Below, one piece after another: positions 9,799-15,014 of a stretch of DNA of 64,000 nucleotides (within the stretch, counting starts at the first letter, position 1; each line of letters begins with the position of its first letter). This DNA comes from Cloacibacillus sp. An23 (lineage in GTDB: Bacteria > Synergistota > Synergistia > Synergistales > Synergistaceae). The stretch covers positions 186,001-250,000 of the forward strand of contig NZ_NFJQ01000003.1 in the NCBI RefSeq assembly GCF_002159945.1, read 5' to 3'. The notes beneath the pieces were generated by a model. The model made no database searches and was not told the origin of the DNA. It worked only from the letters and a program-made list of their open reading frames with translations. The translations under genes were made by a program, and so were the position numbers.

Positions 9799-10018
9799 TT
9801 TTGATACATGGCGCGGTTGTACGAATTCCGCGAATATAGACTGTGAAGCGATATGTGGTGGCTAAAAGCGCGCAAAGGACAAAAAACGAAAAGCTACGGG
9901 ACAAGTAACAAGGTGGTGTGCAAGAAGGGCTGTATGCGCGAGCATACGAGATATTTCATAACGACGCTGACGGACGACAACAATTATTTGATTTGAAAGA
10001 CTAAATGCAGTTGTCAGG
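9799..10018 (+). mobile_element. Decayed ISAs1-family remnant
   Basis: Scattered stretches match the nearly complete element downstream: TTTGATAC near 9799, CCGCGAATA near 9828, then about 50 bases around 9931-9977 matching 10883-10930 with few changes (GAGCATACGAGA, TTCATAACGACGCTGAC), and finally TTTGATTTGAAAGACTAAAT with a degenerate right end near 10018. Large parts of the transposase gene are deleted. It is an older relative of the copy at 10041-11202, which inserted 22 bases beyond it. Confidence 0.65.
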
Positions 10019-10040: not shown

Positions 10041-11202
10041 CAGGGCGACAGCATTTACTTTATAGCCCCCACGAGTTACAACTAAAGCATGAGAATAGAA
10101 ACCTTAAAAGAAGAACTTAGCAACATAACGGAACCGAGGCGTACCGGCTTTGGGAATATCAGGCACAAGCTGGAAGATATTATCATCATAGGCCTATGCA
10201 CTGTGATATGCGGCGGAGAAGATTTTGTCGAAATGGAGGAGTTCGGCAAAGCGAGAAAAGAATGGCTCGAGGTCTTCCTCGAACTGCCTAACGGCATACC
10301 GGACAGCGACACATTTCGCCGCGTCTTTGAACGCCTAAACCCTAAAGAGCTCTCACAATGCCTTGTAAACTGGCTTGAAGCTGAACACGCAAAACGTGCA
10401 GTGATCGCAGTCGACGGCAAGACGATATGCGGCAGCGCCAACGCGGAACACAAAGCCTATCACGCAGTCAGCGCCTTTGTCTCTGAAAATCAAATCACAT
10501 TAGGCGAAATAGCCGTGCCTAACAAGACGAACGAAATAACGGCGATACCGGAGCTGCTCGACCTTGTAGATATAAAAGGGCAGATAGTCACAATAGATGC
10601 GGCAGGCTGCCAGAAGAAGATAGCTGAAAAGATAGTGGGGGAAAAAGCAGACTATGTACTAGCCCTAAAAGACAACCAGCCGGAACTGCACGAAAACGTC
10701 AGGCTGTACTTTGATACGTTCAGAAACGAGCTGGAAGAGGAGCGGCGCCCAGACAAATGCCACGGACGGACGGAACGCCGCGAATACAGGCTGCTGACAG
10801 ACATATCGTGGTTGGAAGCACGTAAGGAATGGAAAGGACTCAAAGCCGTCGGCGAGGCAAAAGCGTGGTATATGAAAAAGGCGTGATGCATGAGCATACG
10901 AGACACTTCATAACGACGCTGACCGACGTCGAAGAGTTCGCTCACGCAGTAAGAAGCCATTGGTCGATAGAGAACGGCCTCCACTGGTTTCTGGACGTGA
11001 TATTCAGAGAAGACGCGGCGAGAGCCAGAAAAGACAACTCGCCGCTGAACATGAACGTCCTGAGAAAGACGGCGCTGTCACTGCTCAACAAGGCCAGATA
11101 CGGACGTGTGAGCAAGAGAATAATAAGGTTTAGGGCAGCCATGACTCCTCAGATTATGCTCAACGTCTTGTTTGATTTGAAAAAGTAAATGCTGTCGCCC
11201 TG
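10041..11202 (+). mobile_element. ISAs1-family insertion sequence with intact ends
   Basis: The element has perfect 20-base terminal inverted repeats: CAGGGCGACAGCATTTACTT at 10041-10060 and its exact complement at 11183-11202. It is bounded by identical 10-base direct repeats GAGGCGCTGT (10031-10040 and 11203-11212), the target duplication size expected for this family. Length is 1162 bases. The identical flanks indicate recent insertion. The only transposase frame is broken, so it may depend on copies elsewhere to move. Confidence 0.92.
10089..11188 (+). pseudogene. ISAs1-family transposase, frameshifted
   Basis: Two frames encode consecutive parts of one DDE transposase of the ISAs1/H-repeat type. 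Frame one (10089-10886) has VIAVDGKTICGS and the IDAAGCQKKIAEKI region; frame two (continuing to 11188) has RSHWSIENGLHWFLDVIF with the final catalytic Glu. The join is at the GCAAAAGC run near 10860: reading on in the -1 frame restores the protein. Family members are normally a single ORF of about 370 residues, so loss of one A is likelier than programmed frameshifting, though the A-run would permit slippage. Confidence 0.85.
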
Positions 11203-11215
11203 GAGGCGCTGTTTA

Positions 11216-11244
11216 TTGACTTCTATAGCCCGGCATCTTATGAT
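11216..11244 (+). promoter_or_regulatory. Promoter of the FokI-like operon
   Basis: TTGACT (11216-11221), 17 bases, TATGAT (11239-11244) form a near-consensus promoter 39 bases before the methyltransferase ATG. It begins only 3 bases after the target duplication of the insertion sequence, so the element landed just outside it. Confidence 0.6.
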
Positions 11245-11282
11245 ATACAATAAGGATGTTTTAGGATGTCGGGGTGCATATC

Positions 11283-13232
11283 ATGAGATTTATCGGAAGC
11301 AAAGCAAAATTGCTGAAAAACATTGATATGGTCATATCTGAGAACACAGATGGGAACGAGAAAATTTTCTGCGATATTTTTTCTGGAACTGGGTCTGTCG
11401 CCAGATATTTTAAGCCGCGCTATGAGATCTTATCGAATGACACGCTGTATTTTTCATACGTAATACAGAAAGCCACTATAGAGAACAACTCCAGACCGGA
11501 GTTCTCGAAGCTTAGGAGCATCGGCATCCGCGACCCGTTTAGCTTTTTAGAAGAAACGCAGGTACAAATATTGGATTATGACGACGCCCATTATTTCATA
11601 ACGAAAAATTATACGCCGCATGCCGGCTGCGAAAGGATGTACCTTTCAAACAAAAATGCGGCGAGAGTTGATTTCATCCGCAACACAATCGAAGCATGGA
11701 AACGAGATGGAATGCTCCGCGAACTGGAATATTACTATTTGCTGGCAGGTCTTATAGAGGGCGTGCCGTCTGTTTCAAACATCACTGGCACTTACGGAGC
11801 ATACCTGAAATATTGGGACAAAAGGGCGTTTAAGGATTTGGAACTCTCAAGGCTGGACGTTTTCAATAATCATAGAAACAATACGAGCTACAACAGAGAC
11901 GCGAACGAATTGATCCGCGACCTAAGCGGCGATATTTTATATCTTGATCCGCCGTATAATTCTAGACAGTACGTACCGAACTACCATTTGCTTGAAACAA
12001 TATCAAAATACGATTATCCAGAGATACATGGTATAACGGGGATGCGTCCGTGTAATAACGTAAAATCGCCTTTTTGTATAAAAGGTGAGGTTGCGGATGC
12101 CTTTGAAGACTTAGTAAGCAAGGCTGATTTCCGCAATATTGTAATGAGCTATAGCACGGATGGGCTTATGACGGCCAGCGAGATTGAAAAAATTTTGAAA
12201 AGGCATGGAGTTGAAGAGAGCTACAAAATGTATTCTGTTCCCTATCGGCAGTATATGAGCAAAAAGACCATGCAGAAGGAATATTTATACGAATATATTT
12301 TTTACATAAGAAAAAATATCCCGAAGAAGTTACATTTTGAGTTTTGCGAAACGTCCCGTCCTGACAGCGCAGCAACAGCCGACACAAAAAAATATATCAA
12401 AAGCCCTGTGAATTATATTGGCGGAAAATATAAGCTTCTTCCGCAAATTTTGCCGAATTTTCCCAGATATATAGGTACTTTTGTAGATTTGTTTGCAGGT
12501 GGATGCAACGTTGCAATCAACGTAAACGCCAATAAAATAATCTGTAACGACATAAATACAAAAATAATAGAGATATTCCAGGCATTCAAAGACACCGCCA
12601 TCTCTGAAATATTGCGTCAAATCAAGACGCGCATAGCTGAATACGGCCTTTCAAAGGAGAATGAAGTTGGTTTCAAACAGTTTCGGAACTATTACAATGC
12701 TACACAAAACCCGATAGATTTATATACTCTTGCTTGTTATTCATTCAATTACCAATTCCGCTTTAACAATAATCTTGAGTACAATAACCCTTTCGGGAGA
12801 AACAGAAGCCGTTTCTCCGATAACATGGAACACAACTTGATAACCTTTGTTTTCAAACTTCAAAGATTAAATATCGAATTTTCGAGCATAGACTTCATGC
12901 AGATACCGCTAGACTCATTAGCCTATGACGATTTGATCTACTGTGACCCTCCTTACCTGATAACGACTGGAACGTATAACGACGGCAATAGGGGATTCAA
13001 AGACTGGAAGCTGGAGCAAGAGTCAGCTCTGTATGATTATTTAGATGCGGCAAATGTGCGCGGCATAAAGTTTGCCCTGTCGAACGTCATTGAGCACAAG
13101 GGGAAAGTAAACGAACTCCTCTCTACGTGGGCCTGTAAATATAGGATTATCGATTTGTCTATGAGCTACTCGAATTCAAGCTATAACACAAAGAGAGGAG
13201 AGAGCCGGGAAGTCTTGATAATAAACTACTAA
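11283..13232 (+). CDS. FokI-type double-domain N6-adenine DNA methyltransferase
   Basis: A roughly 650-residue fusion of two D12-class adenine methyltransferases. Counting from the upstream GTG at 11274, domain 1 has DIFSGTGSV (34-42, AdoMet binding) and DPPYNSRQY (225-233, catalytic); domain 2 has DLFAGGCNV (405-413) and DPPYLITTG (558-566). This tandem layout and size are those of M.FokI, in which each half methylates one strand of the asymmetric site GGATG. I prefer ATG 11283 because D12 enzymes start MRFIGSK; GTG 11274 adds three residues. The gene is markedly AT-rich against its neighbours and is followed after 3 bases by the FokI-like nuclease, so it protects host DNA from it. Confidence 0.93.
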   Translation: MRFIGSKAKLLKNIDMVISENTDGNEKIFCDIFSGTGSVARYFKPRYEILSNDTLYFSYVIQKATIENNSRPEFSKLRSIGIRDPFSFLEETQVQILDYDDAHYFITKNYTPHAGCERMYLSNKNAARVDFIRNTIEAWKRDGMLRELEYYYLLAGLIEGVPSVSNITGTYGAYLKYWDKRAFKDLELSRLDVFNNHRNNTSYNRDANELIRDLSGDILYLDPPYNSRQYVPNYHLLETISKYDYPEIHGITGMRPCNNVKSPFCIKGEVADAFEDLVSKADFRNIVMSYSTDGLMTASEIEKILKRHGVEESYKMYSVPYRQYMSKKTMQKEYLYEYIFYIRKNIPKKLHFEFCETSRPDSAATADTKKYIKSPVNYIGGKYKLLPQILPNFPRYIGTFVDLFAGGCNVAINVNANKIICNDINTKIIEIFQAFKDTAISEILRQIKTRIAEYGLSKENEVGFKQFRNYYNATQNPIDLYTLACYSFNYQFRFNNNLEYNNPFGRNRSRFSDNMEHNLITFVFKLQRLNIEFSSIDFMQIPLDSLAYDDLIYCDPPYLITTGTYNDGNRGFKDWKLEQESALYDYLDAANVRGIKFALSNVIEHKGKVNELLSTWACKYRIIDLSMSYSNSSYNTKRGESREVLIINY

Positions 13233-13235
13233 CCC

Positions 13236-15014
13236 GTGAAAAACATGATTTCTATAGTTCCTACGTATAATAGAAAATTCCGTGCTTTTGGTTGGGTGCA
13301 GGATCCGAGTAACCTGCGAAGTCTTTGCGATGTCGTAGCAGTGTTTGCCCCTTGCTCTGCAAAACACAGGGAGATGGTAGACAGCGTTATACCAAGATTA
13401 GTCGCGGAACAGGACGGACGTGGCGCATTCATCGAGGCATTGCGGCTCAGGCCGTTGAAACTAAAATATGCGCACCTTGTCGGCACATCGTTTACCCCAA
13501 GAAGCGCGTCAAGGTGCAATGGCATTATACAGGCGGCTGTCAAGGGGCAAGGGCGGGATTTTATCGTGGACTGGCCCGCTGATAATTTTGTGCGTTGGGC
13601 ACATTGCTTTGGCTTCATCAAATACGACTACGCAGACGATAGTTTCGAAATAACTGACAGCGGACTGGAACTTGTGCGAGCCCGTGGCGCGGAAGAAGCG
13701 TTATCCGAGAAAGAAAAAGAGTTGCTAATAAACGCTGCTTTGGCTTATCCACCTGTGGTGAGGGTATTAAGCTTGTTATCAGAAACGGAAGATACACACC
13801 TCACGAAATTTGAAATAGGACGCCAGTTGGGCTTTATCGGCGAGGACGGCTTCACCAGTATGCCTCAGAAAGTATTTGTACGCTCGTTGGCAAACGCGGA
13901 GGCAACAGAGCGCAGTACCATGAAAGCAAACTGGGAGGGATCGTCGGATAAGTACGCAAGGATGATTGCGAAGTGGCTTGAAAACCTTGGGCTTGTCATG
14001 CGTGTCTCGAAAGAAGTCACGGTTTGGTTAGGCGAAAAGAGCTATACCGATACGATAGCGCATTCGTATATTATCACGGCTCCTGGAATTACAGCGTTAC
14101 GAAGGTCTGTCGGAAAAAGCAGACATAAACGCATTGCGAAAAACGTATGCTGGGAGATGTTAGCGACTAAAGGTGCAGATAGGGAATACTTGCGCACGCG
14201 CCGAGCTCTCATTTTGAAATGTTTATCCGAGAGTTCACGAAGGGTTTCTGACAGTAAAATTATAAATTTTCTTGAATCCAACGGGTTTAAAGAAAATAAC
14301 AATACCGTTGCTGACGATATAAGGGGATTACAGAATATTGGTATTGCAATATCGGTAAAAGACGGCAAATATTTATTTGACGACGTAATCAATGATTTTG
14401 TCATCCCTTTGCCACAGTCGCTTGCAAAATCCGATTTTGTAGAAACGAAAGAGCGGATCAGGGATAAATTATTGCATCTGCCGCATGAGTATCTATCGCT
14501 CATTGACCTTGCATACGATAGTAAGCAGAACCGCTTGTTTGAGATGAAAACGTTAGGTTTGCTGACAGAAGAGTGCGGTTATCATGGTTTGCATTTAGGA
14601 GGAAGCCGTAAGCCTGATGGGATAATCTACACAGATACAGAGAGATATAATTATGGTGTAATTATAGATACAAAAGCATATTCCAGAGGCTATAACCTGC
14701 CCATTTCACAGGCAGACGAAATGGAACGTTATATTGGAGAAAATCAAACGCGGGATGTAAAAATAAACCCGAATAAATGGTGGGAGTACTTTCCCGCTGA
14801 TGTAGAGGAGTTCTATTTTATGTTTGTTTCTGGGCATTTTATCGGTAATTTTAGGTCTCAAATTGAGCGGATAAGTAGGAATAAAGCGATTAATGGAACT
14901 GCTATAGCTGTCGCAAATCTCCTGCTGTGCGTAGAAGCTTATAAAGCGGGAGAACTTACTCATGAGGCAATTAAAACGAAGGTGTTCAATAACGGGGAAT
15001 TTGAACTATCATAA
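13236..15014 (+). CDS. FokI-like type IIS restriction endonuclease
   Basis: This 592-residue protein aligns end to end with R.FokI. The DNA-recognition region keeps FGWVQ (18-22), LVGT (81-84), a Trp at 113, and NWEGSSDKYARMI (232-244); the cleavage domain has GGSRKPDG with Asp461, then DTK with Asp478 and Lys480, the same 17- and 19-residue spacing as FokI Asp450, Asp467 and Lys469. The dimerisation helix QADEMERYIGENQTR keeps Asp494 and Arg498, matching FokI Asp483 and Arg487. It should cut at a fixed distance from its site. One recalled base-contact position, Asn13 of FokI, is Asp23 here, so specificity may differ from GGATG. GTG 13236 or ATG 13245 could start it. AT-rich composition suggests recent transfer. 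Confidence 0.95.
   Translation: MKNMISIVPTYNRKFRAFGWVQDPSNLRSLCDVVAVFAPCSAKHREMVDSVIPRLVAEQDGRGAFIEALRLRPLKLKYAHLVGTSFTPRSASRCNGIIQAAVKGQGRDFIVDWPADNFVRWAHCFGFIKYDYADDSFEITDSGLELVRARGAEEALSEKEKELLINAALAYPPVVRVLSLLSETEDTHLTKFEIGRQLGFIGEDGFTSMPQKVFVRSLANAEATERSTMKANWEGSSDKYARMIAKWLENLGLVMRVSKEVTVWLGEKSYTDTIAHSYIITAPGITALRRSVGKSRHKRIAKNVCWEMLATKGADREYLRTRRALILKCLSESSRRVSDSKIINFLESNGFKENNNTVADDIRGLQNIGIAISVKDGKYLFDDVINDFVIPLPQSLAKSDFVETKERIRDKLLHLPHEYLSLIDLAYDSKQNRLFEMKTLGLLTEECGYHGLHLGGSRKPDGIIYTDTERYNYGVIIDTKAYSRGYNLPISQADEMERYIGENQTRDVKINPNKWWEYFPADVEEFYFMFVSGHFIGNFRSQIERISRNKAINGTAIAVANLLLCVEAYKAGELTHEAIKTKVFNNGEFELS

Follow-up and report, generated by a model that had tools for sequence, protein, structure and literature searches.

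Zinc-finger and TALE nucleases owe their nuclease to FokI, and a locus that resembles it in a Synergistota genome raises three questions: whether the system is intact, whether it reads the same site as FokI, and how its expression might be controlled. We addressed them in a stretch of 64,000 nucleotides (the window) and in related loci of other genomes. The following features are concerned:

10089 to 11188, + strand: ISAs1-family transposase gene, frameshifted, in two frames (10089-10886 and 10829-11188), with NCBIfam transpos_ISAs1 on both pieces.
11216 to 11244, + strand: predicted sigma-70 promoter of the M-R operon (TTGACT 11216-11221, 17 nt, TATGAT 11239-11244), with 10/12 matches in a consensus scan whose sites overall were no more numerous than in shuffles.
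11254 to 11268, + strand: tandem GGATG (11254-11258 and 11264-11268, 10 bp start to start), a proposed operator, from conservation.
11283 to 13232, + strand: M, fused two-domain adenine-N6 methyltransferase of the M.FokI type (Pfam MethyltransfD12 twice, PADLOC MTase_II).
13245 to 15014, + strand: R, FokI-type restriction endonuclease, 589 aa from ATG (phmmer, Pfam, structural model).

An intact FokI-family operon, present twice

The open reading frame of R, which may start at an in-frame GTG at 13236 or at ATG 13245 and stops at 15014, matches FokI residues 4 to 577 (phmmer E 2e-160 to 2FOK), with 267/572 residues identical, about 47%. Four Pfam domains, PF02981, PF02980, PF16902 and PF09254 (D1, D2, D3 and the cleavage domain), are found on the single chain, all above cut-off. 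The AlphaFold model of R, built from a 43-sequence alignment, has a mean pLDDT of 92.5 and gives TM values of 0.91-0.96 against 2FOK/1FOK. It superposes on 1FOK with Z 49 and 1.8 Å over 562 residues. Residues D461, D478, T479 and K480 of R (numbered from the GTG) align with FokI D450, D467, T468 and K469, and both dimer-interface residues of FokI, D483 and R487, are retained. The end-to-end alignment, the catalytic spacing and the interface residues described in the note from the sequence alone are thus confirmed. Its description of FokI-like enzymes as a small family does not hold, as 137 relatives were obtained from one scan of species genomes. Equivalents of FokI Q12, R79, Q95, W105, K225 and R228, which we take to be DNA-contact residues, are retained in R and are invariant or nearly so across the family. 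R is an intact, full-length FokI-family type IIS endonuclease. It would bind GGATG through its D1 and D2 subdomains, dimerize through its single-site PD-D..TK nuclease domain, and then cut downstream, at 9/13 by analogy with FokI.

The M gene encodes 649 aa from ATG 11283 to the stop at 13232, with an in-frame GTG at 11274. Pfam finds MethyltransfD12 as two stretches, a DPPY motif is present in each domain, and the PADLOC MTase_II profile matches M over its full length with 912 bits. The two domains share 57% and 62% identity with their counterparts in M.FokI of the FokI source species, in agreement with the double-domain M.FokI type assigned earlier. M is expected to methylate adenine on both strands of GGATG/CATCC. 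The M-R pair is an intact type IIS operon, and these results place it in the FokI family.

With a GC content of 38-48%, the operon is an island in the window, which has about 62%. The GC3 of M and R is 0.44-0.48, compared with 0.81-0.87 in two neighboring genes. The host assignment to Synergistota is consistent with 14 Synergist-CTERM matches in the genome, where 14 control genomes gave none. In the tree of R proteins, that of the window is nested among Clostridia systems, the closest of which are 72-73% identical; the FokI-like R of another member of the host's family (G007) belongs to a distant clade and has separate methylases. Considering the low GC3 and the Clostridia-nested position, horizontal acquisition is the natural reading of the origin of the operon. 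The frameshifted ISAs1 transposase gene is located directly upstream of M-R, and a short duplicate of part of it occurs just upstream of that gene, at window positions 9934-9976. A 44-base ISAs1 3' end is also found elsewhere in the same genome (G000:C10:138901-138944). A search for R in viral contigs and phage records gave no match.

A second complete M and R is located 30 kb upstream on the same contig, outside the window (G000:C3:167138-170897; L008:7138-10897). The two copies are 87-89% identical, and their DNA is 87.5% identical over 3.8 kb. Synonymous divergence between them is 0.60 for M and 0.46 for R, with dN/dS values of 0.10 and 0.13, respectively; judging from these ratios, both copies are under purifying selection. 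The neighbors of the copies are ordinary metabolic genes (some identified from reading their translations). Upstream of the second copy, too, there is an ISAs1-like 3' end. Both copies read as AT-rich imports, with their nearest relatives among Clostridia systems. The low GC shared by the copies and the ISAs1 3' end before both would fit the arrival of one mobile unit on two occasions, or of both copies together.

Residue 13 and the recognition site

The position of FokI N13 is occupied by Asp in R, as the earlier note had observed, and the note suggested that the recognition site may have shifted as a result. The residue matters in FokI, where N13Y is binding-deficient (PMC4081073). Asp13 is present in both copies, and residue 13 covaries with residue 109. 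Among the 86 scorable rows of the family, 33 have D at position 13, 28 have E and 25 have N, and the 13/109 pairs are D-N (33), E-S (28) and N-G (25) with zero exceptions. Of the remaining columns, residue 109 alone fully determines residue 13. The three states require about three changes on the R tree, and the coupling therefore rests on few events. One of these changes, a nested D-to-N replacement in termite-gut Oscillospiraceae, is accompanied by a flip of residue 109. Across it, the N domain of M is without any fixed difference and the C domain has a single conservative one, so that the change in R has no N-domain counterpart in M, which argues against a shift of the site.

Csp12AI provides further evidence against a shift. 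Its R (L067) has Glu13 and Ser109, and its methylases (L198 and L200), located 1.2 Mb away as published, have proven modification of GGATG and CATCC (PMC4752239). GGATG specificity is thus compatible with an acidic residue at position 13, and the proposed shift is unsupported. In addition, D13 and N13 systems have the same tandem GGATG in the M promoter. With D or E common at position 13 and coupled to a compensating change at residue 109, we consider it highly unlikely that the Asn13 to Asp difference has moved the recognition site away from GGATG. The 13/109 pairing suggests three equivalent builds of one base-reading position. Both copies very probably recognize GGATG, as FokI does, and the tandem GGATG in the M promoter supports this specificity.

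The same recognition residues are found in both copies: there are zero differences at the presumed DNA-contact positions, and D2, at 92%, is the most conserved part of R between the copies. The two systems are therefore most likely isospecific. The tandem GGATG stands before each copy, and an identical GGATGTTTTAGGATGT is present in both promoters. Copies that have diverged to this extent (dS 0.46-0.60) and yet remain intact under purifying selection could be explained by two distinct sites. However, the unchanged contact positions, the conservation of D2 and the identical promoter element make a difference in specificity very improbable.

K-mer statistics were obtained for contig C3 only. GGATG is weakly under-represented there (419 seen, 464 expected), and we dropped its depletion as proof of specificity because the effect is too weak. 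In 270 kb of the same contig, the whole window included, the most under-represented 5-mer is GGACC/GGTCC (GGWCC), with 167 seen against 366 expected (z -10), which may be a trace of restriction, past or present, at an AvaII-like site.

The tandem GGATG before the methylase gene

The predicted promoter has its -35 hexamer starting exactly at 11216, the start given in the earlier note, and related loci have the same promoter geometry in front of M. The first GGATG begins 9 nt past the predicted -10 box, and both sites lie directly after it. Within the window, GGATGNNNNNGGATG occurs only once, with 0.06 occurrences expected. Upstream of M, both copies read AAGGATGTTTTAGGATGT, and a slightly longer tandem pattern occurs in the genome exactly twice, once before each copy.

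This arrangement extends to the family. A pair of direct GGATG sites with a spacing of exactly 10 bp is present in 42/43 fused-M loci with a readable upstream region, FokI included, compared with 0/20 split-methylase loci, a contrast that mostly reflects one clade. We rejected the view of this contrast as many independent events for that reason. When the fused-M loci are reduced to <80% identity, the tandem remains in 28/29 loci and is found in 0 of 300 mononucleotide shuffles. Of all combinations of pentamer and spacing, GGATG at 10 ranks first, followed only by pentamers overlapping the same repeat. The 42 tandem pairs are every such pair in 0.92 Mb of family loci, counted on both strands. 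The conservation is confined to GGATG and its nearest flanks, whereas the spacer and the promoter vary. The second GGATG lies 10 to 24 nt from the start codon, depending on the locus, whereas the 10 bp spacing is invariant. In loci whose R converges on M or lies upstream of it (L010 and L011), the tandem still precedes M and not R.

The sole fused-methylase locus without the tandem is L027:2543-4480, in which control may have been lost or the site changed. In a Lactobacillus johnsonii plasmid (L012:3483-5305), R is broken into two frames, and M with its tandem GGATG promoter is intact.

The operator pattern was also searched more widely. In viral contigs it gave 53 matches, most of them the same recurring stretch and 0 on contigs with an M.FokI-type gene; outside promoters, the pattern by itself is therefore not diagnostic. 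The search of 391 Clostridia-class genomes gave 32 matches versus 2 for the reversed control. Three of the 32 precede an M.FokI-type gene (L175, L176 and L185), and most of the rest look like chance or coding sequence.

Promoter-based control by a methylase has precedents. The M gene is controlled by promoter methylation in LlaDII and AhdI, and promoters are switched in CfrBI (PMC12707154). As in these systems, in which the methylase targets one or more of its recognition sites within a promoter of the system, the M promoter region here contains two copies of GGATG, its presumed own site. LlaDII, AhdI and CfrBI differ in not belonging to the FokI family; in the type IIS family studied here, the tandem geometry is conserved and the regulatory role is inferred. 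By this analogy, we somewhat favor the tandem GGATG being an operator through which M regulates its own operon. The two sites, one helical turn apart after the -10 box, would allow M to limit its own operon by methylating or by occupying them. In a naive cell, M would be made freely, and its expression would be damped once the sites were methylated or occupied.

The tandem could alternatively be a translation or leader element, Shine-Dalgarno-like or made of start-stop mini-ORFs, or simply a relic of descent. AAGGATG resembles a Shine-Dalgarno sequence, the second site can lie 10-13 nt before the start codon, and a stop codon follows the second ATG in 27/42 loci; shared descent alone could also retain a short promoter sequence. 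However, a leader element is difficult to reconcile with a start-codon distance that varies while the spacing is fixed, or with the two copies in the present genome, neither of which has an immediate stop codon. The tandem sequence is, moreover, exactly the enzyme's own site, and the variation of the spacer and promoter around it speaks against both a leader and a relic. We therefore regard these explanations as rather unlikely. Another possibility is that the tandem is a target of R, serving as a fail-safe by which R cuts or blocks its own operon when methylation falls. The sites are oriented such that FokI-like cleavage (9/13 by analogy) would run into the start of M, and the presence of more than one site stimulates FokI (PMC4081073). 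Nevertheless, where R is transcribed apart, the tandem is found before M and not before R, and two R molecules on sites 10 bp apart would probably clash. An R target is accordingly a very remote prospect.

Returning to the operator through which M would act, we tentatively extend it to the whole fused-methylase family, a proposal to which we give slightly less than even chances. The family, FokI included, would have an unreported operator composed of two own sites one helical turn apart, perhaps bridged by both domains of one M. Split-methylase relatives would be without it, some having a gene for a helix-turn-helix (HTH) regulator. A small gene of the HTH_26 (Cro/C1-type) family is located directly upstream of M1 in L056, L058, L059 and L074 (tested with Pfam in L056 and L074, assigned by similarity in L058 and L059), all with split methylases and no tandem GGATG. 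This gene is a possible alternative regulator. A full-text literature search, which did not extend to the 1989 FokI papers, found no earlier account of the tandem GGATG or of control of the FokI operon.

Relation to known systems and significance

The closest known system is that of FokI itself (Planomicrobium okeanokoites, L052). Both systems have a fused two-domain m6A methylase, an R with D1, D2, D3 and a PD-D..TK domain, the catalytic and interface residues, and the tandem GGATG 10 bp apart upstream of M. They differ at the 13/109 pair, which is Asn13/Gly109 in FokI and Asp13/Asn109 here, and R shares only about 47% identity; unlike FokI, the present system occurs twice in its genome, in a host of another phylum. 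Csp12AI of Clostridium sp. 12(A) also has a FokI-family R with an acidic residue 13, but this is Glu13 with Ser109, and its two methylase genes are separate and 1.2 Mb from R. The sequence GGATGTNNNNGGATGT is absent from the Csp12AI genome.

A shortened form of R is found on a Staphylococcus haemolyticus plasmid (L015:1529-2470), where only the N-terminal half of the protein is left (313 aa, roughly D1 and D2). It lies next to IS257, and no methylase match was found in that stretch. Half-length matches occur on 8 staphylococcal plasmids. This half R could represent either decay or a separate DNA-binding role.

Considered as a whole, the locus is likely to be a horizontally acquired FokI-family operon with GGATG/CATCC specificity, a second, likely isospecific copy and a putative tandem-GGATG operator. 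The system itself is another FokI-type member of a kind already known, well preserved and present twice in an unusual host. The new element suggested by the comparison is the family-wide tandem self-site as a candidate operator. The 13/109 pairing bears on the re-engineering of specificity. If the proposal is true, a self-site operator would add a family to promoter-methylation control, a mode described in a recent review as "apparently rarely used" (PMC12707154). Since the element is conserved across the fused-methylase family, its role can be tested directly and cheaply in FokI itself. The promoter site may also serve as a computational read-out of specificity in uncharacterized members, in which the site in the promoter should equal the methylated site.
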